Of a stretch of DNA of 64,000 bases, positions 4,142 through 61,420 are shown piece by piece. Position 1 is the first letter of the stretch. Each line of letters opens with the position of its first letter. Source of the DNA: Terebella lapidaria (Eukaryota; Annelida; Polychaeta; Terebellida; Terebellidae); assembly GCA_949152475.1 (NCBI GenBank), contig OX424570.1, positions 27,400,694 through 27,464,693 on the forward strand, read 5' to 3'. Both the position numbers and the translations under genes were made by a program. The notes beneath the pieces are model-generated. The model was given only the letters and a program-made list of their open reading frames with translations. It was not told the origin of the DNA and did no database searches.

Positions 4142-4143
4142 TA

Positions 4144-8715: not shown

Positions 8716-10130
8716 CTGTCGAAGCGGAGGATATGATCCAAACTATGCACAAACATTCTCAATTTTATCGATACTTGTGTATTACGGATGTGGTTCACCA
8801 GTATATCAAATCAGAGGATAACTACTCATTTTGCATACTTTTTGCAGTCAAATCTTGACAGAGAAATTGAAAGTTCTGTTGATATCCAGCAAATAAGTCG
8901 TACATGTATCTCAAATTCCCCTTTTGTCTCCAAATCTGACAGAATAACAATTGACCACCCGCAGGCCTGTCAGGCCTCAGATGTTCCCTCTTACATTCTA
9001 TGATACTTTTAGAATCGATTCACCTGAATATTCAAGAGTTTTACTATCAGACATCATTCAAGGTTGAATTCAAGGTCACCATTTCGAGGGCCATATATTC
9101 CTACCACGCAATTTTTGACCTCGCGCGTTCATCCAAAGTTAAATTAAGTTACCTCATAAACTCATATTCATTCAATCTTCCCAAAAAAGAAGTTTCATAT
9201 CTGAGCATTGCACAACATAACTGTGCAATATCACAGCGATTCCTGTGAAACTAGACGCTTCCGGTCGCCTACGACCGCTTGGGTGTATCCCCCGTAGCCC
9301 TATTATCTTTGTTTCCCCAAATATATCACTGTCAAGTGTGAAAAACTAGAGCAAGGGCTAAAAAAGATTACCAGAGAAATGTTAAATCTCAAGTCACAAC
9401 TGTTTTCTTTTCCCCACCAAAATTGCTGCACTGATTTTCCGAGGTTATTGAAGGTCGAATTCAAAATCACCACTGAAATCTCTTTATATGAATTTCCATT
9501 CAACATGTTTGATAAAATAATGAAAAAACAGATAGATCAATCTTTTCACCTATTTATATTTCAACTCAGAATATTTTACAAACTTGGTTCCAAGTTGAAA
9601 TTCAAAGTAAAATTTGACCAAAAATGCATTTCAAGATGACGAAATTGGAGCCAGATTGAACTTCTCACCATAAGTTATATTTCGACTCATAATACATGTA
9701 TGTGCCAAACATGGTTCCAAGTTGAAATTCAAAGTAAAAGTTAATCAAAGCTGCATTTCAAGATGTGTCCCCAAACGACCAATTCAATTGCCACGGCAAC
9801 CAAAATCGATTGGTGTCGGGATCTTACCATAATATATGTGCCTGCAAAAAATAATGGTGATCGGGTGAAAATTGCGGCCTGTAGCGCGTTCACAAGCCAT
9901 GTGTCTCAAACAGGCTGTTTTCAATGCAAAATGTGTCCCCAAACGACCAATTCAGTTGCCATGGCAACCAAAATCGATTGGTGTTGGGATCTTACCATTA
10001 TATATGTGCCTGCAAAAAATAATGGTGATCGGGTGAGAATTGGGGCCTGTAGTGCGTTCACAAGAAAATCTCTGCAGACGCGGACGCGGAAGCGGACGAC
10101 GAAGCCAAATCCATAGTATCCGCCGAACTT
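8716..10130. other. Noncoding: duplication breakpoint and repeat-rich DNA
   Basis: The part up to 9246 corresponds to CASD1 intron 11 in copy B. After that the sequence is not shared with copy B. It contains dispersed AAGGTTGAATTCAAGGTCA-type phrases (9055-9075, 9445-9475), AAGTTGAAATTCAAAGTAAA twice (9592, 9719) and the direct duplication described at 9763. No exon is supported. Confidence 0.6.
9763..10055. repeat. Direct duplication, period about 169 bp
   Basis: The stretch starting TGTGTCCCCAAACGACCAAT at 9763 recurs at 9932 with few changes, including the TTGCCACGGCAACC and AATAATGGTGATCGGGTG phrases. A diverged relative occurs near 42530-42700 next to the intact CASD1 intron. It looks like part of a transposon family that has lost its ends. 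Confidence 0.7.
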
Positions 10131-12181: not shown

Positions 12182-15100
12182 ATGGATGAGATGTTGAGAA
12201 CATTGTGTTTCTTCATGCTCTTTTCTGTGGGATCACTGACATCTCCGGAAGGTTTGGTGAATTATAATTCTGTAGGGCATGACATCTGCAATATCATCCT
12301 TCATACTATGAAATTCCAAACATATAAATTAATGCGTACATATACCATGCACACTGCACAAATAATGGCTGGTTCAATACAGATAACTCGGAATACCATA
12401 TGAGGTCTCGTTTCTGTTCCCATATCAGGTCTGATACTGTTTGTTTTAAAAACACAAATACTTGAAGGTGTCATGCTAATGTTAAAAGATATATTTTGAC
12501 TGCTGTGTAACTCGAAACCGAGCGAATACGTTTATATTGCTTTTTTTATGTTGACAGTTCACAACAAGACTTACTGCACGGGTACGACCTATACTGATCA
12601 AGAACCACTCTGTGGAGCTGGTGAGGTGATTCAGGTGGAGGACGTGTTTGTCTACAGCTATCCTGAGCGTAGACGCAGATCTGCAGTGAACAGATCCTGT
12701 ATGTACAGTGCTGGTGACACAGAGGAGCGTCTGCTAGATGTCCGAGCTACCAGGTTTCTTGATATCGTGTTTGCTTGTGATAGAAGGCGAAAGTGTTCTG
12801 ATTTCCACATTTCCAACTTCAAGCTTTCAAATGGGCAATCAAGCAACTACGTAGCCATGCAATACAAATGTACCGAGAATCACATTGGAGGTGAGCTTCT
12901 AATATGTGTCATCATGTCAAATTCATGCAGGTCCAATGATGTTATTATAGTGAACAATACTGCGATGAAATATCCGTGTTCAACAAAAACATTTTACTTG
13001 CAGGGTTTGTACATTTCACCTCACAAATTTCACTACAGTGTCCACCCGACCAAGAGATACTGGTGGTTGCTGTATTCAGCAATTACGTTTGCCCATCAAG
13101 GTCAATTTATCTGAAAGATGTCGAAAATCTTGAAGCTGTGCAGAATAGATGTGATGGTAAACCATCTTGTCATGATGTGGAGTACACTAATAGAAGTGTC
13201 CGCTGTTCTGAAACAAACCAACACATATCGCCGTCACATGTGGCGGTGTTCTTCAAATGTATTGCTCCCTTGACAACAATGATGTTGGCGACGACGATGA
13301 CAACAACAACAAACACAACAACAAAGACAACGTTCGCTGCATCAGTCGTCACGACTACACCAGACCGACTCCCTCCTTCTCCCCGGGACACTGTTACCCA
13401 CACCCAGACTGGGGCTACACCGCAGATATCACCCGGGAACAGCCGCCGCCAAATAAGTGTTAAATGTAAATGAACCAGAGAGAGGATTAGCGTCTTCTCT
13501 ATCGAAATATCAATTCCTCAGATACCAAATAGAAAGATGCATAATATTGAATACAATACTATTTTGTAGGTAAACAGTCATATGTTTATACTATATGTGA
13601 CATGTGTGATCGGAAAGTGTGTTCTGTAACACAGGGTTATACGCTGGTGTGGCCATGGCTTGGGTTTTCGGCGTTGTAGTCGCAGTTACGGCTGGTGTCT
13701 GTGTAAAAAAGTAAGTGTAACATGATATACGGTCAATACAGGCTTGTTGTGGTCACTGCTCCTCTAACAGCCTAAACGTACTTTGCTGTTACTGGTGTGT
13801 TCTTCGTTATTGGATGACATGTTAAGATTCCATGACTAAAATTATTTGGTTGTAATTAATGTTTCTTATTTACAGTCACCTTTGCGAAATATGTAAAAAG
13901 TCGCTTGGAATGAGCGGTTTATGTGATTGTTCAGGGACGACCCTAGTGATTGCCAAAAGGACGGGGGAGGAGTGTATGAAGTATGCAGAATGGCTCGCAA
14001 AGGACAATGATTCTGCTGGTCACTGGATGGCCTGGGCGAATACTCGTATTTGAGGCTATCCTTTACTTGTTTGAATCGGGGGTAAAACATAATTACCCCA
14101 GTTGGGGAATGTTTTGCAGGCTGTCTCGTGTCTTTCCTATATACTCTGATTTTTCTAACTTGTTTACACCGGTTTCTGACAATATTATTGCGATGCTAAA
14201 TGGTATCGATCTGTAACTTGGCATATTATACGATACCATTTAGCATCGCAAAAATATTGTCAGAAACCGGTGTGAACAAGTTAGAAAATCAGAATATATA
14301 GGAAAGACACGAGACAGCCTGCAAAACATTCCCCAACGTTTCCAGTGACCGGGTAAATGAGGCCACACTGAGTGTGTATCATGATATGACAATACAGCGA
14401 CATCGGTACAGTGATAATACAGAAATGAATGAGTTATAAATTCAATTTATTCAACTTCGACCCCGGGCCAACGCCATCAGTCATCACGTGGTTGGAGGTC
14501 GGGAGGGGGGGGGGGGGGGAGGAGGTGACGGATTCATTACAGAGAGGTCTGACCCTCATTTCACCGCAATATTTCATACTTGTTGAGACATTTACACACT
14601 TTATTGATCATCATTTGGCAGCTGATGTGAATATTGCTCTTTTCTGCCAATTCTCATGATTGAATCTCAATATGGTGACTTGGTTTTACATGCATACATT
14701 CGACATATGACGTATCACCGTCCGGTCATTTTCGTGTAGTGAATGAAAAACAAAACATAACTTCAAAACAACGGAGAACGTGATAGTACTCAAGTGTTCT
14801 CAACTTCTCAGTGAACGACATCGATCGATTGATTGAGTTTATTCAAGCAAAAATACAAGATATTGAGCTGGGATGGCACGCTAAAATGTTAGACACTTAT
14901 TTCCAGTGTGGTCCCGAGGAGAAACTCATGATATCTAGTGGGCGGCATGTAGTTATTATAGAGTTCACCTACTTTACGTATAGGATAATGCAGGGCGAGG
15001 GTCTCTCGCGATAGTGACCAAGAGGCCGAAGGTCAGGAGGCCAATGGCTACGTGGATTATCTGACTCAGTGCAGGAGGATCATATTCGCAAAATCAGTAA

Positions 15101-16644
15101 CCTGGTCGTAACTCTGTTCAATAGTAACTTATAAACAACAAAGTAAACGGCCCAACCATACACTATTCATACGTAGTTAAATTATATCAACACATTTTTG
15201 TTCTTGAGAGACGTCGACTTTCAAGATATTGTTTTACATGTTCTTAACGAGTGTTCAGTTTGTAGGGTTTTAATACTTGAGGGTAGATTGTTCAAGATTA
15301 ACCTTTAACATCGAAGTTGTTTGAGGCGCTACCATGAACTCGTGGTCCCATAAAATTATGTTGTGCATTTCGAGTAAAACTAAGTTGCACGTTCTGAGAA
15401 CATTGCACATGAGAATAGGGGTTAATTTTCCCGGATTTGCCCGGAGGGTTGATAAATTATTTGAATGTCATGTTCATTGTGTGAGCGGGACTGAGTGGTA
15501 GCAGCGATATTGGGCAATCATTCACATCTGAAAGGGAACTCACTTCCTCATTATATGATAATTTGTTTATCAGTTATCTGCTGAACATCAGGAAATGTAA
15601 TATATCCACTTGAATTCATGTTATCTGTCAAATATATGGTTCATCGTTGTATAGTTGCTTGATGTCTGTGAACTAAACGCCTTTTGTGAATGAAATTGTT
15701 ATACTTAAGTTACTGGATCTCTGGACTGATAACCTATTGCCATGCCGTTGCATTCGTTGTTCGTACGCTTAGCCGTTTAGTCGTCGTCTTTAAGTCTACA
15801 GTGGAATGTTTCTGAAGTTTTACACAAATATAGCTAAAAAAAATACTTCAAAACGGAGAATTTTTTATTTTTGCAAATTTTCAGAATGTCGGCCATTTTC
15901 GACGAAAAAAAATTGGACAATTATCGATTATGGTTATTATTATTAACCATCACAATTATGGTCGTTTTCTCATAATCCGTGAAGAAAGCCTTACTTGCAT
16001 ATAATTTTTTTCTATTGGGCATATCAGGAGCCACAAGTAAGGCATGTAGTGCTCACGCGTTCCTGCACAGTGCCAACACTGGACTCACACTTGATTTCCC
16101 CCGCACTTTGTCCCATGTATATCAGAAGAAGGATTATTCTATCCTTGACTCATCAAGATGTTGTTATTTCAGAAAGCGCTCAACTGACGCCCCCAATGAT
16201 GCTGGTAACGATTCACCCGGTATGGGTGATGTCATCTCACAACCTGCCCCTGAGAGAGTGAGTCGACAGCAAGCCAGTACCGGGGATGGTGTTGTCTACT
16301 GTACGATAGATGAGAACGAGATGGAACCGAGTCGTCAAGACGTACCAGAAGCAGAATATGTCGGCCCAGACCCGCCCAGACAGAGTGAGACAAATCACGA
16401 GTATCTCGCCTTGATAGAAGATTCCTCTGACACTGCTCCAGCTGTGCGATTCGTGGCAACATCACCTCAGCGGTCACCTTATATCAGCATGGAGGGAACT
16501 CGCAGGGCCAACAAACCGTGCTCCAGTGCAAAGCAGGAACGGATCGTGTATGCCAATGTCAACACAACAGGAGGAGCATCGCCTCCAAAACCTGGCTCAG
16601 ACCAGCAAGTGTCACAGTATGTCAACCAGTCCATTCAGCCTTAA
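12182..16644 (+). CDS. Lectin receptor 1: two SUEL-type domains, one membrane segment, tyrosine-motif tail
   Basis: Exons: 12182-12251, 12558-12890, 13004-13465, 13635-13710 and 16173-16644; they join in frame to 470 residues. Order: signal peptide (about 1-19); first galactose/rhamnose-binding (SUEL) domain (24-134), recognised by GEVIQVEDVFVYS, DIVFACD and YVAMQYKC; second SUEL domain (about 135-222) with CPPDQEILVVAV, NRCDGKPSC and HVAVFFKC; Thr-rich stalk; membrane segment in the fourth exon; 157-residue tail. Both lectin exons are phase 1-1. The tail has six tyrosines, in VVYCTI, AEYVGP, HEYLAL, SPYISM, IVYANV and SQYVNQ, plus a PPKP segment. VVYCTI and IVYANV fit the ITIM consensus; YISM fits a PI3-kinase SH2 site. 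SUEL lectins bind galactose or rhamnose; the ligand here is unknown. Signalling is inferred. An alternative exon lies at 13876. The second and third exons have good splice sites, while the first donor (GTTTGG) is weaker. Confidence 0.85.
13876..14053 (+). CDS. Alternative terminal or cassette exon of lectin gene 1 (short Cys-rich tail)
   Basis: After the acceptor TTATTTACAG the frame continues in phase from the membrane exon (phase 2) and stays open for 59 residues to TGA. The residues begin HLCEICKKSLGMSGLCDC, a Cys-rich start. If used as the last exon it would replace the tyrosine tail by a short tail. A possible internal donor (GTATGC at 13981) would instead make it an in-frame cassette. 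The exon is conserved in units 2 and 3. No domain is recognised. Confidence 0.5.
14101..14337. repeat. Long hairpin, arms of about 109 bp (unit 1)
   Basis: 14101-14210 and 14228-14337 are near-perfect inverted complements around an 18-base loop; the shared phrases include GTTGGGGAATGTTTTGCAGG and GACAATATT. It sits in the last intron of lectin gene 1. Units 2 and 3 keep the right arm but have a shorter left arm (22078-22250, 29590-29790). A diverged half-copy at about 62438-62510 shows this is a dispersed fold-back or MITE family. Confidence 0.85.
15726..15990. repeat. Fragment of the GGTTACCGGAC transposon family
   Basis: The phrase ATAACCTATTGCCATGCCGTTGC is the reverse of the right end of the element at 3008-4141, followed by the family's GGCCATTTTCGACG-type interior. 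It lies upstream of the tail exon of lectin gene 1; the equivalent in unit 3 is 31546-31797. Unit 2 has lost it in a deletion. Confidence 0.55.
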
Positions 16645-17561
16645 GAGCAGAGGAATTGTTCATATTGTTTCTAGACTAGGGGCAATGAGCTGAATGATAC
16701 GATGACAACAGTGCTAATTTAGGGGTTGATGATGACAGAACGGAATAATTTACGAATGGTTTATGAAAAAGTACAAGAATGACATATTCCAGAAGCGTTT
16801 AATCATAATCTAATTGAAATATATGAATGTACTTGTGAAGTATGAATTTCATGATCAGGTCTAAAAGATTCTACCAACATATTAGAGTAATGACTGGATC
16901 CAAACACATGAAAGAGTCAGACCAAATAACAAAAATTGTTTCAGTGTTTGGCAGCCAATGTCTTTAAATCCGCACCAGTGATGTTTCCAATGTACTCAAA
17001 CACATCCGTTATTGTATCGTATGAGGGCTCCCAATTGTACCTCGATATAGCTAGCAGCAAGTGAGTAACAGGCTGACGTTGTTGACTGAGGAATATATTT
17101 TTTGTCATATCATTTTAAGTTAGAAGCATAGAATGTTCAAGTAATATGTCTGCTACTATGTATATTCTGCATGAACGTGTGATATTAATTATTGATTATG
17201 AGTTAGTTTGGATGGGTGGGCTCATTCCACTATGAATCAACCTGGCTTTCTAAGCATGAATGAGTCAGAGAGCGGAAGTATATATATAATCACTTACTAT
17301 CAATAACAATAAAATGAATGAAATAATGTACATGTATATAGTCTCATATAAATAGTTTGGTTATTGATAAAACCATACAGTAAATAATATGTACATGAAA
17401 TAGGCAAAATACATATTGCTTCAGCATGAGCAGTATCGTGCCATGGTGGGATCAATTTCATCAAATATTTGGTCACTGTCATTGTATTGTTTAGTGAGAT
17501 TGTATCGCCTTTGTGAGACACCAGACGAGTATGTGTTCCTCAGCTTGAATCTCTAACTCAC
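16645..17561. other. 3' flank of lectin gene 1
   Basis: AT-rich sequence conserved in the other units. On the minus strand 16955-17050 there is a short open stretch (YNWEPSYDTI... ending at TGA) that is also open in unit 3 but frameshifted in unit 2. I do not call it a gene. Confidence 0.5.
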
Positions 17562-17750
17562 CATGGAATCGTCTATTTTCTCGGAGTATCCGTGGTCAGC
17601 GGCCGGTCCCAACACGGACGTTGTAAGACCCGATTCCAAACCATAGGGTGAACGACTCGGAAGTTCTATATCATGTTGTATCCGCTTGTTTGGGGCTAAG
17701 GAGGGGTGGAGTCTCTTGTATGCAGTATTTGTGCTGCTGGCAGGTTGACT
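17562..17750 (-). CDS. Candidate coding exon of an unidentified minus-strand gene (unit 1)
   Basis: A 189-nt segment lies between a plausible acceptor (TTTTACACAG) and a strong donor (CCATG before GTGAGT), phase 0-0, encoding 63 residues from SQPASSTNTAY to EKIDDSM. The same length, frame and splice sites occur at 25172-25360 and 33524-33712, with several synonymous or conservative changes. No family is recognised and no partner exons could be joined with matching phase. It could be one exon of a small gene antisense to the lectin array, or a chance open segment kept by recent duplication. Confidence 0.4.
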
Positions 17751-18029
17751 CTGTGTAAAATTGGACCAGGGACAAACGTAATTGGGTAAGACGTCTTTCA
17801 CGTGTCTGTTTATTTGAGTACTTATATGAGTCCATATATCCCAGATGTCATGTTTCGTATATTTGCAGAAATTGTATATTAGTAGAATTTATTGCTAGAA
17901 TTGTATATCATATGTAACTTCGAAGCTGTTCACTCCCATCATTCAATTTGGAATATTGTAATCATAAACAACAATTCATACTCTACTGACAAGACTACAA
18001 AATCACCTACGTGTCAGGGGTTATCAGAA

Positions 18030-18660
18030 ATATAAGAAGTTTTAAATTAACTTTTATTTTTATACTATGCATACTTACCTCTGACCACAGGCACTTGAAG
18101 ACCAATAAATTGACGGTACATTGTGCTATATATAATAATATATACAAGGCACTCAAGCCCCTGTCGGGAAAATGGTGGTTGGACAAACACTCGAAACTTC
18201 AAAGCTCCAAAAATGCTACTTGTCCATCAAATTGATACAAACCAGCATGGTCAGGGGCTTGAGTGCCTTGTATAGATTATATATATAGCACATTGTATGG
18301 TCAATTCAATGGTCTTCAAATGCCTGTGCCTCTGACTATGGGGTCGTGTAATCAGCGAGCCCTCATTCGCCAACCACACATGAAATATGGGTGAAAAAGC
18401 TAAACGAAGTTAGCTGGTCCGTTTAGACCCTGCGTTAGTAATGGTAGTTACCTGAGCAGTTCACCCTCCGTGTGGTAGCATGATCGTGCCAGTCCACTGC
18501 CTCCCAGTTCACTTTTGTTGAGTAGCAGAACTTGATCACTGAAGGTTATCTTCTGAAAAGAGAAGAAGATAATCAGCGGGGAGGAGGGTGGGACCATCCA
18601 GCGTCAGAGGTAAGTATGCATAGTATAAAAATAAAAGTTAATTTAAAACTTTTCATTTGT
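18030..18660. repeat. Nested fold-back segment at the end of unit 1
   Basis: Two inverted pairs are visible. 18036-18083 and 18604-18651 are reverse complements (AAGTTTTAAATTAACTTTTA... and its complement). Inside them, about 18085-18165 pairs imperfectly with about 18248-18345 (CAAGGCACTCAAGCCCCTG against its reverse). Identical in unit 2 (25671-26300), absent from unit 3, where the sequence ends at the DIRS junction. Confidence 0.75.
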
Positions 18661-19087
18661 TATGCTAAGCGATACTTACCTCTGACTATGGGGAATGGCC
18701 TGCCGGTGGTGGGCCCCTCAGTGAGTAAGTACGCCTTGCACAAAATCATCCCCTGAAAGTAGAAGGATGAGAACTATGCATAATACCAGTGACTATAACT
18801 ACTGTATAAAGGATAAGGAACCCGCTCCTTTCCTATAGTATGTGCGCCTTAGTGGTAGCCAACAGCATTGTGTTCTCTCGTCATTATTCGAGTTTTTGTG
18901 CTGGATTACTTTGGAGTACGATCTAGAGGCTTGCACCATTCTGTCAGTGAAGTCGTGTAGTTTCTGACAGCAATACTGAACTGGATAATCTGATGGTGGA
19001 TAATTGATGAACTGGGTCAATATCTTTCATTATCTTTTCATCATTGACCAATCTCTTAGCCATAAACAAAAGCACTGCATGCATAAT

Positions 19088-19472
19088 ACTTTTGCTTTCA
19101 TAGACATAAGAAGTCTATGCTTGAAAATTACAGCTTGGCTCTTAAATAGCCAAATCATCAAACCATTCCATGTACTGGTACTAGTAGTAGATAAATTTAT
19201 TCAATTTCATTTATTTTTATTTAATTTATTTATTTTAGCAATATTGTTTATTCTTGTGGTTTTTTTTTTATATTTGTTAATATACTATCATATATCAGTG
19301 TTCAACAAAACCATTTTACTTGCAGGGTTTGTACACGAGCTTATAAATTGTTACTTTATAAGCTTTGAGCTTCAAACAATTTCCTTTTCATTATTCAAAT
19401 GCATTATCATTGGATTCTATTCACTGTTATGAATGTTAAATATTGAATAAACTGATTTGATTGATTGATTGA
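19088..19472. repeat. Insertion at the start of unit 2, with a lectin exon fragment
   Basis: Absent from unit 1 and present again at 26729-27112. It ends in a GATT microsatellite (TTGATTGATTGATTG), like the 3' tail of some LINEs. At 19298-19335 it holds a copy of the acceptor and first codons of lectin exon 3 (GTGTTCAACAAAA, then TTTTACTTGCAGGGTTTG). Confidence 0.7.
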
Positions 19473-19994
19473 CGACAATTGTTCTGAGTAATAATATAAA
19501 GCAAACTATAAATTCTGTCAAATTTGGCAGATTTTTGGAAACAAGGTTTAATAAAGTGGCAAAGTAATACTTCTTTTTCTTATCATGAATTGCAGGATTG
19601 CACCCATACCCAATATTGACAGAGTTATCTGTAATTTGATGAAATCAGCTGTGCTCTCATAAACCCCCGCACATCACAAAAACATGACAACCCCCCTAAT
19701 ATGGTCCAAAGAGGTTCATACAAGGAAATTATATTATACTCAAAATATTTATCGCCTAATGACCAACATATACTACCACCGCTGTCCCATTACGGAAAGC
19801 TGAATTAGACATTGAAGTACTTCCCGGTTGAGTAATGAATGCTACATGTAGATGTGTATAGCAGCAATGTTTGTCGACAGTCGCTGATGTACGCTGGGTG
19901 AGACGTCATATTATTCAGTTCATACTCTACATTGTAGCTACGACTGTCATACGGATGATGTTTGAGTGAAAGACACATAGCGAAAGTGATTAAC

Positions 19995-22900
19995 ATGGAT
20001 GAGATATTAAGAACATTGTGTTTCTTCATGCTCTTTTCTGTGGGATCCCTGACATCTCCGGAAGGTTTGGAGAATTATAATTCTGTAGGGCATGACATCT
20101 GCAACATCATCCTTCATACTATGAAATTCCAAACATATAAATTAATGCGTACATATACCATGCACAGTGCACAAATAATGGCTGGTTCAATACAGATAAC
20201 TCGGAATACCATATGAGGTCTCGTTTCTGTTCCCATATCAGGTCTGATACTGTTTGTTATAAAAACACAAATACTTGAAGGTGTCATGCTAATGTTAAAA
20301 GATATATTTTGACTGCTGTGTAACTCGAAACCGAGCGAATACGTTTATATTGCTTTTTTTGTGTTGACAGTCCACAACAAGACTTACTGCACGGGTACAC
20401 CTTATACTAAACAAGAACCGCTCTGTCCTGCTGGCGAGGTGATTCAGGTGGAGGACGTGTTTGTCTACAGCTATCATGCGCGTAGACGCAGACCTGCAGT
20501 GAACAGATCCTGTATGTACAGTGCTGGTGACACAGAGGAGCGTCTGTTAGACGTCCGCGCGATTGTGTTTCCTGATATCGTGTCTGCTTGTGATGGAATG
20601 CGAGAGTGTTCTGATTTCCACATTTCCAACTTCAAGCTTTCAAATGGGCAATCAAGCAACTACGTAGCCATGCAATACAAATGTACCGAGAACCACACTG
20701 GAGGTGAGCTTCTAAAATGTGTCATCATGTCCAATTCATGCAGGTCCAATGATGTTATTATAGTGAACAATACTGCGATGAAATATCCGTGTTCAACAAA
20801 AACATTTTACTTGCAGGGTTTGTACATTTCACCTCACAAATCTCACTACAGTGTCCACCCGACCATGAGATACTGGTGGTTGCTGTATTCAACAATTACG
20901 TTTGCCCATCAAGGTCATTTTATCTGAAAGATGTCGAGAATCTTGAAGCTGTGCAGAATAGATGTGATGGTGAACCATCTTGTCATGATGTGGAGTACAC
21001 AAATAGATCTATCCGCTGTTCTGAAACAAACCAACAAATATCGCCGTCACATGTGGCGGTGTTCTTCGAATGTATTGCTCCCTTGACAACAATAATGTTG
21101 GCGACGACGATGACAACAACAACAACAACAGAAACACAACAACAAAAGACAACGTTTGCTGCATCAGACGTCATGACTACACCAGACCGACTCCCTCCTT
21201 CTCCCCGGGACACTGTTACCCACACCCAGACTGGGGCTACACCGCAGATATCACCCGGGAACAGCCGCCGCCAAATAAGTGTTAAATGTAAATGAACCAG
21301 TAGAATCAGAGAGGGCCCATGTAGCGCAGCTTACTATTTCTTCTAAATTCAATGAAGATTAAAAATGTGCCAGACGGATTAAATATGGTATACATCCAGT
21401 GGGGGAGTAGTATTAACAGAGTAAGGTGCGCTACTTGGGCCTAAGAGAGTATTGGCGTCTTCTCTATCGAAATATCAATTCCTCAGATACCAAATAGAAA
21501 GATGCATAATATTGAATACAATACTATTTTGTAGGTAAACAGTCATATGTTTATACTATATGTGACATGTGTGATCGGAAAGTGTGTTCTGTTACACAGG
21601 GTTATACGCTGGTGTGGCCATGGCTTGGGTTTTCGGCGTTGTAGTCGCAGTTACGGCTGGTGTCTGTGTAAAAAAGTAAGTGTAACATGATATACGGTCA
21701 ATGCAGGCTTGTTGTGGTCACTGCTCCTCTAACATCCTAAACGTACTTTGCTGTTACTGGTGTGTTCTTCGTTATTGGATGACATGTCAAGATTCCATGA
21801 CTAAAATTATTTGGTTGTAATTAATGTTTCTTATTTACAGTCACCTTTGCGAAATATGTAAAAAGTCGCTTGGAATGAGCGGTTTATGTGATTGTTCAGG
21901 GGCGACCCTAGTGATTGCCAAAAGGACGGGGGAGGAGTGTATGAAGTATGCAGACTGGCTTGCAAAGGACAATGATTCTGCTGGTCACTGGATGGCCTCA
22001 GCGTATACTCGTATTTGAGGCTATCCTTTACTTGTTTGAATCGGGGGTAAAACATAATTAGCATTATGATGTCAACTATACTCTGATTTTTCTAACTTGT
22101 TTACATCGGCTTCTGACAATATTATTGCGATGCTAAATGGTATCGATCTGTAACTTGGCATACGCCAACTGGGAGTCAAGAGCGATATCATTTAGCATCG
22201 CAAAAATATTGTCAGAAACCGGTGTGAACAAGTTAGAAAATCAGAATATATAGGAAAGACACGAGACAGCCTGCAAAACACCCCAACGTTTCCAGTGACC
22301 GGGTAAATGAGGCCACACTGAGTGTGTATCATGATATGACAATACAGCGACATCGGTACAGTGATAATACAGAGATGAATGAGTTATAAATTCCATTTAT
22401 TCAATTTCGACCCCGGGCCAACGCCATCAGTCATCACGTGGGTGGAGGTGGGGGGGGGGGGGGAGGGGGGGGTGGCGAGGAGGGGAGGAGGTGACGGATT
22501 CATTACAGAGAGGTCTGACCCTCATTTCACCGCAATATTTCATACTTGTTGAGACATTTGCACACTTTATTGATCATCATTTGTCAGCTAATGTGAATAT
22601 TGCTCTTTTCTGCCAATTCTTATGATTGAATCTCAATATGGTGACTTGGTTTTACATGCATACATTCGACATATGACGCATCACCGTCCGGTCATTTTCG
22701 TGTAGTGAATGAAAAACAAAACATAACTTCAAAACAACGGAGAACGTGATAGTACTCAAGTGTTCTCAACTTCTCAGTGAACGACATCGATCGATTGATT
22801 GAGTTTATTCAAGCAAAAATACAAGATATTGAGCTGGGATGGCACGCTAAAATGCCAACACTGGACTCACACTTGATTTCCCCCGCACTTTGTCCCATGT

Positions 22901-23489
22901 ATATCAGAAGAAGGATTATTCTATCCTTGACTCATCAAGATGTTGTTATTTCAGAATGCGCTCAACTGACGCCCCCAAGGATGCTGGTAACGATTCACCC
23001 GGTATGGGTGATGTCATCTCACAACCTGCCCCTGAGAGAGTGAGTCGACAGCAAGCCAGTGCCGGGGATGGTGTTGTCTATTGTACGATAGATGAGAACG
23101 AGATGGAACCGAGTCGTCAAGACGTACCAGAAGCAGAATATGTCGGCCCAGACCCGCCCAGGCAGAGTGAGACAAATCACGAGTATCTCGCCTTGATAGA
23201 AGATTCCTCTGACACTGTTCCAGCTGTGCGATTCGTGGCGACATCACCTCAGCGGTCACCTTATATCAGCATGGAGGGAACTCGCGGGGCCAACAAACCG
23301 TGCTCCAGCGTGAAGGGGCTCTTGTATGCCAACATGGACGGAACTCGCAGGGCCAACAAACCGTGCTCCAGTGCAAAGCAGGAACGGATCGTGTATGCCA
23401 ATGTCAACACAACAGGAGGAGCATCGCCTCCAAAACCTGGCTCAGACCAGCAAGTGTCACAGTATGTCAACCAGTCCATTCAGCCTTAA
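19995..23489 (+). CDS. Lectin receptor 2: two SUEL-type domains, one membrane segment, tyrosine-motif tail
   Basis: Exons: 19995-20064, 20371-20703, 20817-21287, 21600-21675 and 22955-23489; they join in frame to 494 residues. Architecture is as in lectin receptor 1: signal peptide, two Cys-rich SUEL domains each on a phase 1-1 exon, Thr-rich stalk (three residues longer), membrane segment GVAMAWVFGVVVAVTAGVC, then a tail of 178 residues. The tail gains one copy of a repeat of about 21 residues, giving seven tyrosines: VVYCTI, AEYVGP, HEYLAL, SPYISM, LLYANM, IVYANV and SQYVNQ. The last intron is about 1.2 kb shorter than in unit 1, but its acceptor is intact. A TTAA-type transposon sits exactly at the stop codon and leaves it intact. 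Changes against unit 1 are concentrated in the first lectin domain (for example CPAGEVIQ for CGAGEVIQ). Function is inferred from domains. Confidence 0.85.
21841..22018 (+). CDS. Alternative terminal or cassette exon of lectin gene 2
   Basis: Same length (178 nt), phase and acceptor as the unit 1 exon at 13876, encoding the same Cys-rich start (HLCEICKK, CDCSG) and ending at the same TGA with a few substitutions near the end. Conservation supports use, but no transcript evidence is available here. Confidence 0.5.
22078..22250. repeat. Hairpin, unit 2 copy with shortened left arm
   Basis: Left arm (ACTCTGATTTTTCTAACTTG onwards) pairs with the right arm ending near 22250, around a loop of about 40 bases. 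The outer part of the left arm seen in unit 1 is replaced by other sequence. Confidence 0.7.
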
Positions 23490-24206
23490 GGATTGATTGC
23501 ATGTGATCGTCATGAACCTGTCAGTGACCAGCTGTCCATTCACTTATAATGTAAATATAAAGGTAACAAATTCATGAATTTACACACTTCCAACCAACGT
23601 GAAACATTGCCTTTTTGATTGTTTGCCATCAAGGATTACTAACCGAGACTCTGTTTCGTACTAAGCAATGTTAAATTTGTTAAATTCATCATTTTCATAT
23701 GTCATTTTCCGACCTATTTCTCAGTCTACAAAATACACTCACAACAATGCGAGCGGAAGGATTGTGCTGTGCAGCAAATAGCTAGTGAGGCCCGTAAAAC
23801 TCACGGGTGATATGCACTCGGGTGCACCGAGGTGTTTGGGATTATGAATGTTCAGCTCATTGTATTCATCTCACAGAAAGTATAGCCCTAGATATTCTCA
23901 TTATTTTGACGACAACAAGGAATAAATATATGCAACAGCCAGTGCTTGTCAAGCAGAACACTCGAATCTTCGTTTTGGTGAAACGTATAAAATGATTTAT
24001 CTAATCATCAAATTGCACAGCTTTCGTGATATCATTTATGAAACCACGTCTCGGTTCATCATCCATGCGTATATGTGTGTGTGCTAGCCAAGTTTTAGGT
24101 CAGGGGATTGTATTGTTTTGGTGATTTTGTTACCTTTACTTTCACATTATAAGTCAATGGAAAATTGCCTCAGTGCAGTCACCGGTAAGTTACGTGCAAT
24201 CACACC
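23490..24206. mobile_element. 717-bp TTAA-flanked transposon at the lectin 2 stop codon
   Basis: The target TTAA is duplicated at 23486-23489 and 24207-24210; unit 1 has a single CCTTAAGAGCAG at this point. Inverted ends share TGATTGCA followed by C/T and GT. TTAA duplication is the mark of piggyBac-type (or Kolobok) elements. No transposase frame is present. The duplicated TTAA includes the TAA stop, so the protein is unchanged while the 3' UTR is pushed away by the insert. Confidence 0.85.
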
Positions 24207-24210
24207 TTAA

Positions 24211-25171
24211 GAGCAGAGGAATTGTTCATATTGTTTCTAGACTAGGGGCAATGAGCTGAATGATGCGATGACAACAGTGCTAATTTAGGGGTTGATGATT
24301 AGACAGGTAGTGTTGTTTATATACGTGTAATGTAATACAATTATATTCAGAACGGAATAATTTACGAATGGTTTATGAAAAAGTACAAGAATGACATATT
24401 CCAGAAGCGTTTAATCATAATCTAATTGAAATATATGCATGTACTTGTGAAGTATGAATTTCCTGATCAGGTCTAAAAGATTCTACCAACATATTAGAGT
24501 AATGACTGGATCCAAACACATGAAAGAGTCAGACCAAATAACAAAAATTGTTTCAGTGTTTGGCAGCCAATGTCTTTAAATCCGCACTAGTGATGTTTCC
24601 AATGTACTCAAACACATCCGTTATTGTATCGTATTGGCTCCCAATTGTACCTCGATATAGCTAGCAGCAAGTGAGTAACAGGATGACGTTGTTGACTGAG
24701 GAATATATTTTTTGTCATATCAGTTTAAGTTAGAAGCATAGAATGTTCAAGTAATATGTCTGCTACTATGTATATTCTGCATGAACGTGTGATATTAATT
24801 ATTGTTTATGAGTTAGTTTGGATGGGTGGGCTCATTCCACTATGAATCAACCTGGCTTTCTAAGCATGAATGAGTCAGAGAGCGGAAGTATATATATAAT
24901 CACATACTATCAATAACAATAAAATGAATGAAATAATGTACATGTATATAGTCTCATATAAATAGTTTGGTTATTGATAAAACCATACAGTAAATAATAT
25001 GTACATGAAATAGGCAAAATACATATTGCTTCAGCATGAGCAGTATCGTGCCATGGTGGGATCAATTTCATCAAATATTTGGTCACTGTCATTGCATTGT
25101 TTAGTGAGATTGTATCGTCTTTGTGAGACACCAGACGAGTATGTGTTCCTCAGCTTGAATCTCTAACTCAC
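24211..25171. other. 3' flank of lectin gene 2
   Basis: Matches 16647-17561 of unit 1 with small indels, including a 2-base loss near 24636 that breaks the short minus-strand frame noted in unit 1. No exon is called. Confidence 0.55.
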
Positions 25172-25360
25172 CATGGAATCGTCTATTTTCTCGGAGTATC
25201 CGTGGTCAGCGGCCGGTCCCAACACGGACGTTGTAAGACCCGATTCCAAACCATAGGGTGAACGACTCGGAAGTTCTGTATCGTGTTGTGTCCGCTTGTT
25301 CGGGGCTAAGGAGGGGTGGAGTCTCTTGTATGCAGTATTTGTGCTGCTGGCAGGTTGACT
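25172..25360 (-). CDS. Candidate coding exon of an unidentified minus-strand gene (unit 2)
   Basis: Second copy of the 189-nt open segment with the same GTGAGT donor and ACACAG acceptor. Changes from unit 1 are few (for example two Ile to Thr changes) and none disrupts the frame. Confidence 0.4.
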
Positions 25361-25670
25361 CTGTGTAAAATTGGACCAGGGACAAACGTGACTTGGAAAG
25401 TTTAGAGGTATGTGTATGGTAATTGGGTAAGACGTCTTTCACGTGTCTGTTTATTTGAGTACTTATATGAGTCCATATATCCCAGATGTCATGTTTCGTA
25501 TATTTGCAGAAATTGTATATTAGTAGAATTTATTGCTAGAATTGTATATCATATGTAACTTCGAAGCTGTTCACTCCCATCATTCAATTTGGAATATTGT
25601 AATCATAAACAACAATTCATACTCTACTGACAAGACTACAAAATCACCTACGTGTCAGGGGTTATCAGAA

Positions 25671-26300
25671 ATATAAGAAGTTTTAAATTAACTTTTATTT
25701 TTATACTATGCATACTTACCTCTGACCACAGGCACTTGAAGACCAATAAATTGACGGTACATTGTGCTATATATAATAATATATACAAGGCACTCAAGCC
25801 CCTGTCGGGAAAATGGTGGTTGGACAAACACTCGAAACTTCAAAGCTCCAAAAATGCTACTTGTCCATCAAATTGATACAAACCAGCATGGTCAGGGGCT
25901 TGAGTGCCTTGTATAGATTATATATATAGCACATTGTATGGTCAATTCAATGGTCTTCAAATGCCTGTGCCTCTGACTATGGGGTCGTGTAATCAGCGAG
26001 CCCTCATTCGCCAACCACACATGAAATATGGGTGAAAAAGCTAAACGAAATTAGCTGGTCCGTTTAGACCCTGCGTTAGTAATGGTAGTTACCTGAGCAG
26101 TTCACCCTCCGTGTGGTAGCATGATCGTGCCAGTCCACTGCCTCCCAGTTCACTTTTGTTGAGTAGCAGAACTTGATCACTGAAGGTTATCTTCTGAAAA
26201 GAGAAGAAGATAATCAGCGGGGAGGAGGGTGGGACCATCCAGCGTCAGAGGTAAGTATGCATAGTATAAAAATAAAAGTTAATTTAAAACTTTTCATTTG
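25671..26300. repeat. Nested fold-back segment at the end of unit 2
   Basis: Near-identical to 18030-18660, with the same two nested inverted pairs. Confidence 0.75.
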
Positions 26301-26728
26301 TTATGCTAAGCGATACTTACCTCTGACTATGGGGAATGGCCTGCCGGTGGTGGGCCCCTCAGTGAGTAAGTACGCCTTGCACAAAATCATCCCCTGAAAG
26401 TAGAAGGATGAGAACTATGCATAATACCAGTGACTATAACTACTGTATAAAGGATAAGGAACCCGCTCCTTTCCTATAGTATGTGCGCCTTAGTGGTAGC
26501 CAACAGCATTGTGTTCTCTCGTCATTATTCGAGTTTTTGTGCAGGATTACTTTGGAGTACGATCTAGAGGCTTGCACCATTCTGTCAGTGAAGTCGTGTA
26601 GTTTCTGACAGCAATACTGAACTGGATAATCTGATGGTGGATAATTGATGAACTGGGTCAATATCTTTCATTATCTTTTCATCATTGACCAATCTCTTAG
26701 CCATAAACAAAAGCACTGCATGCATAAT

Positions 26729-27112
26729 ACTTTTGCTTTCATAGACATAAGAAGTCTATGCTTGAAAATTACAGCTTGGCTCTTAAATAGCCAAATCATC
26801 AAACCATTCCATGTACTGGTACTAGTAGTAGATCAATTTATTCAATTTCATTTATTTTTATTTAATTTATTTATTTTAGCAATATTGTTTATTCTTGTGT
26901 TTTTTTTTATATTTGTTAATATACTATCATATATCAGTGTTCAACAAAACCATTTTACTTGCAGGGTTTGTACACGAGCTTATAAATTGTTACTTTATAA
27001 GCTTTGAGCTTCAAACAATTTCCTTTTCATTATTCAAATGCATTATCATTGGATTCTATTCACTGTTATGAATGTTAAATATTGAATAAACTGATTTGAT
27101 TGATTGATTGAC
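26729..27112. repeat. Insertion at the start of unit 3, with a lectin exon fragment
   Basis: Same insertion as 19088-19472. The fragment of the lectin exon 3 acceptor lies at 26937-26974. Confidence 0.7.
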
Positions 27113-27627
27113 GACAATTGTTCTGAGTAATAATATAAAGCAAACTATAAATTCTGTCAAATTTGGCAGATTTTTGGAAACAAGGTTTAATAAAGTGGCA
27201 AAGTAATACTTCTTTTTCTTATCATGAATTGCAGGATTGCACCCATACCCAATATTGACAGAGTTATCTGTAATTTGATGAAATCAGCTGTGCTCTCATA
27301 AACTCCCGCACATCACAAAAACATGACAACCCCCCTAATATGGTCCAAAGAGGTTCATACAAGGAAATTATATTATACTCAAAATATTTATCGCCTAATG
27401 ACCAACATATACTACCACCGCTGGCCCATTACGGAAAGATGAATTAGACAATGGTGCACTTCCCGGTTGAGTAATGAATGCAAGATTTGTATAGCAGCAA
27501 TGTTTGTCGATAGTCGCAGATGCACGCTGGGCGAGACGTCATATTATTCAGTTCATACTCTACATTGTATCTACGACTGTCACACGGATGTTGTTTGAGT
27601 GAAAGACACATATCGAAAGTAATCAAC

Positions 27628-30600
27628 ATGGATGAGATGTTTAGAGTCTTGTGTTTCTTCATGCTCTTTTCTGTGGGATCACTGACATCTCTGGAAGGTT
27701 TGGAGAATTATAATTCTGTAGGACATGACATCTGCAACATCATCCTTCAGACTATAAAATTCCATAAATATAAATTAATGCGAACATGCATAACATGTAC
27801 ACTGCACAGATAATGGCTGGTTCAATACAGAAAACTCTGAATACCATATGAGGTCTCGTTTCTGTTCCCATATCAGGTCTGATACTGTTTGTTTATAAAA
27901 AAAAAATAAATGAAGGTGTCATGCTTATGTTAAAATATATATTTTGGCTGCTGTGTAACTTGTAACCAAGCGAATACTGTTATATTGCTTTTTTATGTTG
28001 ACAGTCCACAACAAGACTTACTGCACGGACACGATCTATACTGATCATGAACCACTATGTGGGGCTGGTGAGGTGATTCAGGTGGAGGACGTGTTTGTCT
28101 ACAGCTATCCTGAGCGTAGACGTAGATCTGCAGTGTACAGATCCTGTATGTACAGTGCTGGTGACACAGAGGAGCGTCTGCTAGATGTCCGCGCTAATGC
28201 GTTTCTTGATATCGTGTCTGCTTGTGATAGAAGGCGAAAGTGTTCTGATTTCCACATTTCCAACTTCAAGCTTTCAAATGGGCAATCAAGCAACTACGTA
28301 GCCATGCAATACAAATGTACCGTGAACCACACTGGAGGTGAGCTTCTAATATGTGTGATCACGTCAAGTTATGTAAGTCCAATTATGTTATTATAGTAAA
28401 TAGAATAAAGCAAATAATGCAATAAACACATGTGTTCAATAGAATATGACATCTTACTTGCAGGGTTTGCTAATTTCACCTCACGAATCTCACTACAGTG
28501 TCCACCCGACCAAGAGATACTGGTGGTTGCTGTATTCAACAACTACGTTTGCCCATCAAGGTCATTTTATGCGAAAGATGACCAAAATCTTGAAGCTATA
28601 CGGAATAGATGTGATGGTGAACCATCTTGTCATGATGTGGAGTACACTAATAGAAGTGTCCGCTGTCCTCTACCAAACCAACTAATGTCACCGACACATG
28701 TTGTGGTGTTCTTCGAATGTATTGCTCCCTTGACAACAATGATGATGGCGATGATGATGACAACAACAACAACAAACACAACAACAGAAACACAACAACA
28801 AAAGACAACGTTTGCTGCATCAGACGTCATGACTACAACAGACCGACTCCCTCCTTCTCCCCGGGACACTGTTACCCACACCCAGACTGGGGCTACACCG
28901 CAGATATCACCCGGGAACAGCCGCCGCCAAATAAGTGTTAAATGTAAATGAACCAGAGAGAGGATTAGCGTCTTCTCTATCGAAATATCAATTCCTCAGA
29001 TACCAAACAGAAAGATGCATAATATTGAACACAATACTATTTTGTAGGTAAACAGTCATATGTTTATACTATATGTGACATATGTGATTGTGAAAGTGTG
29101 TTCTGTTACACAGGGTTATACGCTGGTGTGGCCGTGGCTTGTGTTTTCGGCGTTGTAGTCGCAGTTACGGCCGGTGTCTGTGTAAAAAAGTAAGTGTAAC
29201 ATGATGTACGGTCAATACAGGCTTGTTGTGGTCACTGCTCCTCTAACATCCTAAACGTACTTTGCTGTTACTGGTGTGTTCTTCGTTATTGGATGACATG
29301 TCAAGATTCCATGACTAAAATTATTTGGTTGTAATTAATGTTTCTTATTTACAGTCACCTTTGCGAAATATGTAAAAAGTCGCTTGGAATGAGCGGTTTA
29401 TGTGATTGTTCAGGGGCGACCCTAGTGATTGCCAAAAGGACGGGGGAGGAGTGTATGAAGTATGCAGACTGGCTCGCAAAGGACAATGATTCTGCTGGTC
29501 ACTGGGTGACCTGAGCGTATACTCGTATTTGAGGCTATCCTTTACTTGTTTGAATCGGGGGTAAAACATAATTAGCATTATGATGTCAACTATACTCTGA
29601 TTTTTCTAACTTGTTTACACCGGTTTCTGACAATATTATTGCGATGCTAAATGGTATCGATCTGTAACTTGGCATATTATACGATACTATTTAGCATCGC
29701 AAAAATATTGTCAGAAACCGGTGTGAACAAGTTAGAAAATCAGAATATATAGGAAAGACACGAGACAGCCTGCAAAACATTCCCCAACGTTTCCAGTGAC
29801 CGGGTAAATGAGGCCACACTGAGTGTGTATCATGATATGACAATACAGCGACATCGGTACATTGATAATACAGAGATGAATGAGTTATAAATTCAATTTA
29901 TTCAATTTCGACCCCGGGCCAACGCCATCAGTCATCACGTGGTTGGAGATCGGGAGGGGAGGAGGTGACGGATTCATTACAGAGAGGTCTGACCCTCATT
30001 TCACCGCAATATTTCATACTTGTTGAGACATTTACACACTTTATTGATCATCATTTGGCAGCTAATGTGAATATTGCTCTTTTCTGCCAATTTTTCGTGG
30101 AGTGAATGAAAAACAAAACATAACTTCAAAACAACGGAGAACGTGATAGTACTCAAGTTTTCTCAACTTCTCAGTGAACGACATCGATCGATTGATTGAG
30201 TTTATTCAAGCAAAAATACAAGATATTGAGCTTGGATGGCACGCTAAAATGTTAGACACTTATTTCCAGTGTGGTCCCGAGGAGAAACTCATGATATCTG
30301 GTGGGCGGCATGTATAGTTATTACAGAGTTCACCTACTTTACGTATAGGATAATGCAGGGCGAGGCCGAAGGTCAGGAGGCCAATGGCTACGTGGGTTAT
30401 CTGACTTAGTGCAGGAGGATCATATTCGCAAAATCAGTAACCTGGTCGTAACTCTGTTCAATAGTAACCTATGAACAACAAAGTAAACGGCCCAACCATA
30501 CACTATTACGTAGTTAATTTATATCAACACATTTTTGCTCTTGAGAGAGACCTCGACTTCTAAGATATTCTAAGATATTCTCTTACATGTTCTTAACAAG

Positions 30601-32524
30601 TGTTTAGTTGGCAGGGTTTTAATACTTGAGGGCAGATTGTTCACGAATAACCTTTTACATCGAAGATTTCGAAGTTATTTGAGGCGCTACCATTAACTCG
30701 TGGTTCCATAAAATTATGTTGTGCGTTTCGAGTGTAGTAATCACGCTGCACTCTTTGGAAGTTTTGACACAAATAATCTGGTGCAGTGTTTTTAAGAACA
30801 TTGCACATGAGAATAAGGGTTAATTTGTCCCGATTTGCCCGGAGGGTTGATAAATTATTTGAATGTCATGTTCAGTATGTGGCAGGGACTGAGTGGTAGC
30901 AACGATATTGGGAAATCATTTACATCTGAAAGAGAACTCACTTCCTCATTATATGATAATTTGTTTATCAGTTATCTGCTGAACATCAAGAAATGTAATA
31001 TATCCACTTAACTTCATGTGATATATCAAATATATATGGTTCATTGTCGTTTAGTAGCTTGATGTCTGTGAACTAAACGCCTTTTATGAATGAAATTGCT
31101 ATACTCAAGATAGTCCGCTCCAAACAGTGAGGGGAGGGATCAAAGAGTTTTTCAAAATATACAACTGTATCAACATTATCTTGAGCTTCAAAATTAAAAT
31201 TATGATTATGTGACTGATAAGCATTTCGAAACTGAAAAGAAAATAGGGGGCGGACGCATTCGCTCGCATGGGAAACACGATGCAAGATGAGAATATGGAC
31301 AAAGAAATGTGCAAAACGCCATAATTTATGTAATTTTAGGTAAATGTTTGTGATTTTTGATCGAATATATGTCGGAGAAACCAGTACGGTGACCCCATAT
31401 TTCCTTTTCAGTATTAGGATGATGATCAGTTACTAAAAAAAATAGGTCTTTTTTAAGAGATAATATTCAAGAAATAACTTTTAAATGTTGACTCTTCTTT
31501 ACCTCACTGTTTGTAGCGGACTACGTTAAGGTACTGGACCTGTGGTTTGATAACCTATTGCCATGCCGTTGCATCCGTTGTTCGTCCGCTTAGATGTTTA
31601 GTTGTCGTCTTCAAAGTCTACAGTGGAATGTTTCTGAAGTTTTACACAAATATAGCTAAAAAATACTTCAAAAGGGATAATTTTTTATATTTGCAAATTT
31701 TCAGAATGGCGGCCATTTTCGACGAAAAAAAATTGGACAATTATCGATTATGGTTATTATTATTAACCATCACAATTATGGCCGTTTTCTCATAATCCGT
31801 GAAGAAAGCCTTACTTGCATATAATTTTTTTCTAATGGGCATATCAGGGGACACAAGTGAGGCACGTCGTGCTCACACGTTCCTGCCCAGTGCCAACACT
31901 GGACTCACACTTGATTTCCCCCGCACTTTGTCCCATGTATATCAGAAGAAGGATTATTCTATCCTTGACTCATCAAGATGTTGTTATTTCAGAATGCGCT
32001 CAACTGACGCCCCCAAGGATGTTGGTAACGATTCACCCGGTATGGATGTTATCTTACAACCTGCCCCTGAGAGAGTGAGTCGACAGCAAGCCAATGCCGG
32101 GGATGGTGTTGTCTACTGTACGATAGATGAGAACGAGATGGAACCGAGTCGTCAAGACGTACCAGAAGCAGAATATGTCGGCCCAGACCCGCCCAGACAG
32201 AGAGAAAGGAATCATGAGTATCTCGCCTTGATAGACGATTCCTCTGACACTGTTCCAGCTGTGCGATTCGTGGCAGCAACACCTCAGCGGTCACCTTACG
32301 CCAACATGGACGGGATTCGCAGGGCCAACAAACCGTGCTCCAGTGTGAAAGGGCTCTTGTATGTCAACATGGACGGAACTCGCAGGGCCAACAAACCGTG
32401 CTCCAGTGCAAAGCAGGAACGGATCGTGTACGCCAATGTCAACACAACAGGAGGAGCATCGCCTCCAAAACCTGGCTCAGACCAGCAAGTGTCACAGTAT
32501 GTCAACCAGTCCATTCAGCCTTAA
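27628..32524 (+). CDS. Lectin receptor 3: two SUEL-type domains, one membrane segment, tyrosine-motif tail
   Basis: Exons: 27628-27697, 28005-28337, 28464-28943, 29114-29189 and 31993-32524; they join in frame to 496 residues. Same plan as receptors 1 and 2. The second lectin domain is the most changed of the three (RCPLPNQLMSPTHVVVF in place of RCSETNQ...ISPSHVAVF), as expected if ligand preference has shifted. The stalk is the longest (a further Thr/Asn insert). The tail of 177 residues has seven tyrosines: VVYCTI, AEYVGP, HEYLAL, SPYANM, LLYVNM, IVYANV and SQYVNQ. YVNM resembles the YxNM class that binds both PI3-kinase p85 and Grb2 SH2 domains. All splice sites are conserved. The weak first donor (GTTTGG) is shared by all three genes. 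Confidence 0.85.
29355..29514 (+). CDS. Alternative terminal or cassette exon of lectin gene 3
   Basis: Same acceptor and frame as in units 1 and 2, but the reading frame ends six codons earlier (a GGTGACCTGA change gives an earlier TGA). The Cys-rich start is unchanged. The early stop suggests weak constraint on the end of this exon. Confidence 0.45.
29590..29790. repeat. Hairpin, unit 3 copy with shortened left arm
   Basis: Same structure as 22078-22250, with the ACCGGTTTCTGACAATATT arm and its complement close together around a short loop. Confidence 0.7.
31111..31523. mobile_element. 413-bp MITE private to unit 3
   Basis: Inverted ends of about 23 bp (TAGTCCGCTCCAAACAGTGA and a complement with one change) are absent from the matching site in unit 1 (near 15707). 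No coding frame. It lies in the last intron of lectin gene 3. The target duplication is not clear. Confidence 0.7.
31546..31797. repeat. Fragment of the GGTTACCGGAC transposon family, unit 3 copy
   Basis: Same remnant as 15726-15990, upstream of the tail exon. Confidence 0.5.
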
Positions 32525-61214: not shown

Positions 61215-61420
61215 ATGAAATCGATTTGTCGCTTTGTTTACATTTTGCCAATGCTTGCCCTCGTATGTTTGGGAGAGGTTATCGAGAAAGAGAACGGACT
61301 GAAGATAGAGATAGTTTCCAAGCCGGATGATTGTGGAGAGAGAGTCAGCAAGAAGGGTGACCAACTGAGCATGCACTACACAGGAACCCTGGAAAAAGAC
61401 GGATCAAAATTCGACTCCAG
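61215..61420 (+). CDS. Secretory-pathway FKBP prolyl isomerase, first exon only
   Basis: ATG at 61215 opens a signal peptide (MKSICRFVYILPMLALVCLG), followed by the start of an FKBP domain: KIEIVSKPDDC, KKGDQLSMHYTGTLEKDG and KFDS. The exon ends at a strong donor (TCCAG before GTAAGG) in phase 2. The sequence is closest in pattern to the ER-type FKBPs (FKBP2/FKBP14 group), which catalyse cis-trans isomerisation of prolyl bonds during protein folding. The remaining exons, including the GWD and GYG parts of the domain, were not found up to 64000, so the gene must continue to the right. Which FKBP it is cannot be decided from 68 residues. Confidence 0.85.

Follow-up and report, generated by a model that had tools for sequence, protein, structure and literature searches.

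Clustered SUEL-like membrane receptors with two classes of tyrosine-rich tail in the annelid Terebella lapidaria

Do the tandem SUEL-like genes of the polychaete Terebella lapidaria encode signalling receptors, and if so, of which kind? The window analysed here, a stretch of 64,000 nucleotides (C17:27400694-27464693), contains three such genes, termed c1, c2 and c3, each of which combines two SUEL-like domains and a membrane segment with a tyrosine-rich tail. An earlier note on this DNA had taken them for an array of lectin receptors and for an invertebrate counterpart of Siglec or CD28-like receptors. They are read here as members of a type I membrane receptor family, located mostly on one chromosome, which probably signals through SH2 adaptors and whose tails appear exchangeable on SUEL-like ectodomains, as in paired receptors. 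The presence of two unrelated classes of tyrosine tail, with probable exchange of tails between genes, goes beyond the earlier note and is the more interesting feature of the family.

The three genes are intact and lie on the forward strand at 12182-16644, 19995-23489 and 27628-32524, as had been claimed. Each has five exons, and all introns are GT-AG with compatible phases (1, 1, 1, 2), giving uninterrupted products of 467, 491 and 493 residues for c1, c2 and c3. All three products are single-pass, as proposed before. A signal peptide leads into two domains, the first about 110 residues long and the second about 90, to which a Thr/Pro stalk is attached; then come one membrane segment, with Lys/Arg directly after it, and the tail of six or seven tyrosines. 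Scored with a generic donor matrix written down from general knowledge, two c1 donors are weak (exon 1, GTTTGG, 3.8; exon 3 at 13457, -0.4), and the other two score 9.7 and 9.5. An alternative in-phase exon-3 donor at 13466, 9 nt downstream, scores 5.8 and adds three residues ahead of the membrane segment. A Cys-rich, phase-compatible exon after the membrane exon (13876-14053, 21841-22018 and 29355-29532), with a good acceptor in c1, was rejected as a probable tail. A search of the animal's own genome turned it up in the six window-type genes described below and nowhere else, apart from one match with an expectation value (E) of 0.35. It has an early stop in c3, its copy at the related locus L012 is apparently frameshifted, and no polyadenylation signal (AATAAA or ATTAAA) lies within about 0.8 kb 3' of it in c1-c3. 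It may be used as a 35-codon cassette.

The c1 tail has six tyrosines, and those of c2 and c3 have seven each. The motifs listed in the earlier note are present as stated: VVYCTI, IVYANV and YVNQ are common to all three tails, YISM occurs in c1 and c2, YANM in c2 and c3, and YVNM in c3, and the c1 tail has YANV and YISM and no YxNM. Five of the six tyrosines in c1, and six of the seven in both c2 and c3, fall within Yxx[ILVM] or YxN. This density exceeds that of shuffled tails, with 20,000 shuffles per tail reaching the observed motif counts in fractions of 0.0009, 0.00015 and 0.0007 (c1, c2 and c3), results that are not independent since the three tails are close paralogues. Each tail has two strict matches to the immunoreceptor tyrosine-based inhibitory motif (ITIM), [ILVS]xYxx[ILV]. 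A 63-nt tail repeat alters the number of YxN[MV]-type sites between copies, with two units in c2 and one in c1 (at 16495).

Eleven tails of the window type, here called class A, were gathered from C17, C3 and C4. All eleven have YxN[MV] and ten have YxxM. A strict ITIM occurs anywhere in the tail in 9/11 and at the first tyrosine in 6/11, the latter being just the six window-type genes. The first tyrosine of the other five tails has Ala at -2, and one of these also lacks the +3 residue. The ITIM and YxN readings of the earlier note both stand as consensus matches. The ITIM is less conserved than YxN[MV], and on this ground the motifs somewhat favour CD28-like adaptor recruitment over Siglec-like inhibition. 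A second tyrosine-rich tail, unrelated to the first and called class B, is found in other members of the family; its motifs are DNVYT, DYSQV, HYTTN, DDYSLA, DEYSVVN, DNxxYE, ENxxYVPW and DNxQYAAW. Of the 27 rows that a genome search with this tail returned, 25 are on C17, and seven of the 27 have an internal stop.

Because c1-c3 are too alike for shared tyrosines to show constraint, conservation was tested on divergent tails chosen by hand, five of the eleven from class A and seven from class B. Tyrosine columns were better conserved than other columns in class A (0.93 vs 0.71, six tyrosine columns, p 0.0097) and in class B (0.84 vs 0.64, eight columns, p 0.005).

Searches of the own genome of 761.6 Mb returned 31 rows for domain 2, 19 for the tail and 47 for domain 1. 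Among the domain-1 rows, 35 have at least 37% identity (33 on C17, one on C1 and one on C9), 11 are more distant and lie on C16, and one lies on C4. The family comprises about 35 loci, mostly on one chromosome. The three tandem genes of the earlier note are half of a set of six close intact paralogues within this larger C17 family. These six window-type genes occupy C17:27.311-27.433 Mb, and all are open with GT-AG sites, the three outside the window being modelled likewise. The 27.335 Mb gene matches c1 exactly in exons 1-4 and differs from it in tail sequence. A c1-like membrane exon is present at 25 of 30 ectodomain loci (L009-L038). The membrane-exon donors are in phase 2 in 16/16 read (C17 and C1), and the tail-exon acceptors are in phase 2 in all 15 tested, from both classes and from C1, C3, C4 and C17. 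The locus L042 (C17:15.85 Mb) has two consecutive class-A tail exons at 2669 and 5201, both open and with phase-2 acceptors, and these are possible alternative tails. The eleven distant domain-1 relatives on C16 lie at 28.21-29.62 Mb, most within 80 kb, with 23-30% identity. No relative was found in a viral collection searched with the tail or in a prokaryotic collection searched with domain 1.

Tail exchange was read from an ectodomain tree of 29 sequences, 27 of them different. The tail class of each row is that of the next tail downstream, in some cases by partial match, and six of the 29 rows, to which no tail was assigned, were omitted from the tail-change count. The six window-type genes, all of class A, cluster with a class-B gene (support 100/100), and the class-A gene at C17:15.85 Mb clusters with four class-B genes (support 100/99). 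Constraining class A to one clade costs 116.7 log-likelihood units (approximately unbiased test, p-AU 2e-57). This single origin is rejected, and tails have therefore probably been exchanged between receptor lineages. The domain exons also have a mosaic make-up. Between c1 and c2, exon 2 differs at 29/333 sites and the flanking introns at 7/419 (Fisher p 7.6e-6), an excess of exon divergence that fits exon-wise gene conversion among the domain exons. A tail switch within one gene was considered at C17:27.5826 Mb, where a class-A tail follows that of the 27.587 Mb gene, which is of class B, at a distance of 3 kb. It was rejected, as no in-frame acceptor was seen before the class-A tail. This tail stands outside the 15 acceptor-tested tail exons and is more likely a relic.

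The SUEL identity of the ectodomains is a remote one. In a Pfam scan of c1, domain 2 matches SUEL at E 0.035, below the Pfam cut-off, and domain 1 gives no SUEL match. Alignments of the three copies were compared by hhalign with ten SUEL domains from the Protein Data Bank (PDB), with 300 shuffles, plain and cysteine-fixed, as controls. Domain 2 scored 30.9 and domain 1 scored 20.1; no full shuffle of 300 reached these scores for either domain, and with cysteines fixed 0/300 did so for domain 2 and 2/300 for domain 1. Alignments of 25 family members matched the SUEL profile at E 4e-7 for domain 2 and 1.9e-6 for domain 1. Against 177,635 PDB sequences, the sole match of the 25-member domain-2 profile is 5h4s, an L-rhamnose-binding lectin (E 8e-5). 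Members scanned singly match SUEL at E <=1 in 15/25 cases for domain 2 (best 0.0096) and 6/25 for domain 1 (best 0.028), and none reaches the cut-off. Domain 1 has 19 invariant columns across the 25 members, whose identity goes down to 45%.

Several results speak against a SUEL assignment. The domain-2 hhalign match spans the first 52 columns only, that is the first half, and the 25-member domain-1 profile has no match among the 177,635 PDB sequences. DUF4210 is matched by 14/25 domain-2 members, with a best E of 0.004, slightly better than the best SUEL value. SUEL is preferred over DUF4210 for domain 2 because the PDB search and the profile comparison are independent of the DUF4210 match. 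Structure models from the three close copies were too poor to weigh on either side (predicted local distance difference test, pLDDT, 50.5 and 43.7), and the Foldseek matches listed, which are noise, include no SUEL structure. Domain 1 also showed a weak resemblance to pancreatic ribonuclease (best E 0.057), which was discarded, having vanished with the 25-member profile. Domain 2 can be placed fairly firmly, and domain 1 probably, as remote SUEL members. The SUEL-type ectodomain claimed earlier is upheld in this sense, through family profiles and not through the Pfam cut-off. On C3, a SUEL exon above the Pfam cut-off is followed at 4.8 kb by a class-A tail, with a candidate membrane exon between them, a putative join. 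Six of eight canonical-SUEL loci (L001-L004, L007 and L008) were read on one strand over 3.2 kb each, a small sample, and in none of the six could a membrane exon with such a tyrosine tail be recognised. The genome as a whole has at least 150 SUEL matches above the Pfam cut-off, many of them clustered (C6 13.37-13.80, 14.48-14.67 and 34.60-34.81 Mb; C16 7.41-7.53 Mb; C3).

Membership in the domain family does not make the window genes lectins. In latrophilin-1, as described in passages of PMC2430599, the sugar is held by Glu42, Tyr63, Gly117 and Lys120, and substitutions at Glu42 and Lys120 abolished or sharply cut binding. In c1-c3 the equivalent of Lys120 is Asn in domain 1, by profile alignment, and Ser/Thr in domain 2, by eye. 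The YGR motif is missing from both domains, and an equivalent of Glu42 is seemingly absent in a comparison made by eye only. At this position of domain 1, Lys is present in two relatives, L012 and L015. Sugar binding by the window receptors is doubtful, since the Lys120 equivalent is absent from them; the earlier term "lectin receptors" is apt for the SUEL-like domains and doubtful for lectin activity.

Rhamnose-binding egg lectins (SUL-I, CSL3) and latrophilins belong by profile to the same domain family as the window ectodomains. The egg lectins are secreted and latrophilins have seven membrane segments, whereas the window receptors are single-pass and lack the Lys120 equivalent and YGR. The earlier note had SUEL domains mostly in secreted egg lectins and adhesion G-protein-coupled receptors. 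However, passages of PMC2430599 describe EVA-1 and its human form C21orf63 as proteins with a single membrane segment and two SUEL/RBL domains that have lost the sugar-contact residues. The ectodomain plan is thus already known from EVA-1, and the novelty is the tail only. No SUEL receptor with an ITIM-type tail was recognised among the results listed by searches confined to an open-licence library.

Clustered type I receptors with tails of the ITIM or hemITAM type (half an immunoreceptor tyrosine-based activation motif) are found elsewhere in invertebrates, in the fester co-receptors (FcoR) of Botryllus and the Alr proteins of Hydractinia. According to passages of PMC12065747, Botryllus FcoR have ITIM and hemITAM tails and an expressed kinase and adaptor set, and at some FcoR loci the motif is switched by splicing. 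These proteins have immunoglobulin (Ig) or sushi ectodomains, and in the window family the evidence for tail exchange lies between genes rather than in splicing. The oyster receptors CgCLec-TM1 and CgCLec-HTM, as presented in sections of PMC13027682, are membrane lectin receptors with tyrosine tails that act through Syk. They differ from the SUEL-like window receptors in having a C-type lectin domain and a tail of the hemITAM type. Vertebrate paired receptors (FcR-like, KIR, Siglec) resemble classes A and B in joining related ectodomains to different signalling tails. CD28 carries YxNM, and CD28-type costimulators are comparable to class A in the YxN[MV] sites. Both groups have Ig-superfamily ectodomains in place of SUEL-like ones; no Ig family appears in the Pfam scan of the c1 protein, and no homology was found or is claimed.

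On the preferred reading, the ectodomain would bind a protein or glycan partner, and engagement would cluster the receptor. A Src-family kinase would then phosphorylate the tail. The YxN[MV] sites would recruit Grb2-like and p85-like SH2 adaptors, as in CD28, and an SH2 phosphatase or kinase would dock at the YxxI/V sites. From a related ectodomain, class-B members would give a different output, like paired receptors. A role in immune or self/non-self recognition is plausible. Tentatively, the family may form an Ig-free paired-receptor complex that evolved separately from the KIR, Siglec, fester and Alr systems. Its clustered SUEL-ectodomain genes would diversify through exon-wise conversion and alternate between YxN[MV]/ITIM-like tails and a second kind of tyrosine tail, and their outputs, graded or opposed, would serve immune or self/non-self recognition.

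The SH2-adaptor reading has to be weighed against other uses of the same parts. The Yxx[ILVM] sites also fit AP-2 endocytic signals, stops are present in several relatives, and the ratio of nonsynonymous to synonymous substitution (dN/dS) among c1-c3 is 0.52-0.81 overall and 0.85-1.07 in domain 2, so that purifying selection does not appear strong; all of these count against it. The endocytic alternative would make the gene products endocytic or scavenger receptors, which take in bound cargo through Yxx[hydrophobic] sites acting as AP-2 sorting signals, with kinase signalling minor. Four, five and five Yxx[ILVMF] sites in the c1, c2 and c3 tails, above shuffles (fractions 0.0052, 0.0015 and 0.0019), agree with it. 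However, Asn at +2 with Met/Val at +3 is kept in every class-A tail, and AP-2 needs neither. Several conserved class-B tyrosines also lie outside Yxx[hydrophobic] settings, and this alternative is quite improbable. Another possibility is a recently amplified and largely non-functional array, in which the likeness of the tails comes from recent duplication and gene conversion. The c2 and c3 exons are 89-100% identical to those of c1, and the stops and dN/dS values point the same way. But the open frames and GT-AG sites of all six window-type genes, the invariant domain-1 columns and the better-kept tyrosine columns of divergent tails make such an array very improbable.

Closest in architecture are adhesion or guidance co-receptors like EVA-1, in which SUEL domains bind proteins such as Slit; the tyrosine tail would then be a general scaffold for adhesion or migration with no immune-type switch. 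The layout and the lost sugar-contact residues are shared with the window genes, and EVA-1 is given as a Slit co-receptor in the same passages of PMC2430599. The window family, in contrast, is large and clustered and has two tyrosine-tail classes. Its c1 protein, scanned in full against Pfam to E 1, has no match to FAM176, the tail family of EVA1. EVA1 is a small conserved family, unlike some 35 clustered loci with exchanged tails, and this explanation is unlikely. A family signalling through SH2 adaptors remains the preferred reading.

The receptor array is flanked by mutual duplicates at window positions 1-9247 and 34876-42466 (96.7% over 2.8 kb and 94.6% over 4.4 kb). Exons of Cas1_AcylT, a 10-membrane-segment acyltransferase as in CASD1, lie at 5017-5337 and 7085-7645 on the reverse strand (E 1.8e-28 and 8.3e-13), and a second copy at about 38218-40848, inside the duplicated segment, is seen in translation only. 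Reverse transcriptase fragments lie at 34543-35043 (-) and 53574-55148 (+), one clear (E 2.8e-18) and one a long open reading frame with RVT_1 just below the cut-off. An FKBP-type isomerase gene starts at 61173-61421, with a likely signal peptide (E 1.2e-4). The features of the three receptor genes are collected in Table 1.

Table 1. Exons and tail repeat of the receptor genes c1, c2 and c3, in window positions.
Feature	Position	Strand	Basis
c1 exon 1, signal peptide	12182..12251	+	ATG, hydrophobic leader, weak GT donor GTTTGG
c1 exon 2, SUEL-like domain 1	12558..12890	+	AG/GT, phase 1-1; 25-member alignment vs SUEL profile, E 1.9e-6
c1 exon 3, SUEL-like domain 2 and Thr/Pro stalk	13004..13456 (13465 possible end)	+	better donor 13466; family profile matches 5h4s only, E 8e-5
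c1 exon 4, membrane segment	13635..13710	+	strong donor; related exon at 25/30 ectodomain loci
c1 exon 5, class-A tail, 6 tyrosines and stop	16173..16644	+	phase-2 acceptor, motifs, 11 related tails
c2 exon 1	19995..20064	+	gene model
c2 exon 2, SUEL-like domain 1	20371..20703	+	gene model, family alignment
c2 exon 3, SUEL-like domain 2 and stalk	20817..21278 (possible end +9 nt)	+	gene model, family alignment
c2 exon 4, membrane segment	21600..21675	+	gene model
c2 exon 5, class-A tail, 7 tyrosines	22955..23489	+	gene model, motifs
c2 63-nt tail repeat, two units	23277..23402	+	each unit with a YANM or YAN[V] site
c3 exon 1	27628..27697	+	gene model
c3 exon 2, SUEL-like domain 1	28005..28337	+	gene model, family alignment
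c3 exon 3, SUEL-like domain 2 and stalk	28464..28934 (possible end +9 nt)	+	gene model, family alignment
c3 exon 4, membrane segment	29114..29189	+	gene model
c3 exon 5, class-A tail, 7 tyrosines	31993..32524	+	gene model, motifs

The locus is a concrete one, with two tail classes on related ectodomains, and permits a direct comparison of tail function. If the tails signal as the motifs suggest, receptor families with related ectodomains and exchangeable tyrosine tails would have arisen on a fold that is neither Ig nor C-type lectin. This would point to the tail logic, rather than the ectodomain, as the recurring part.

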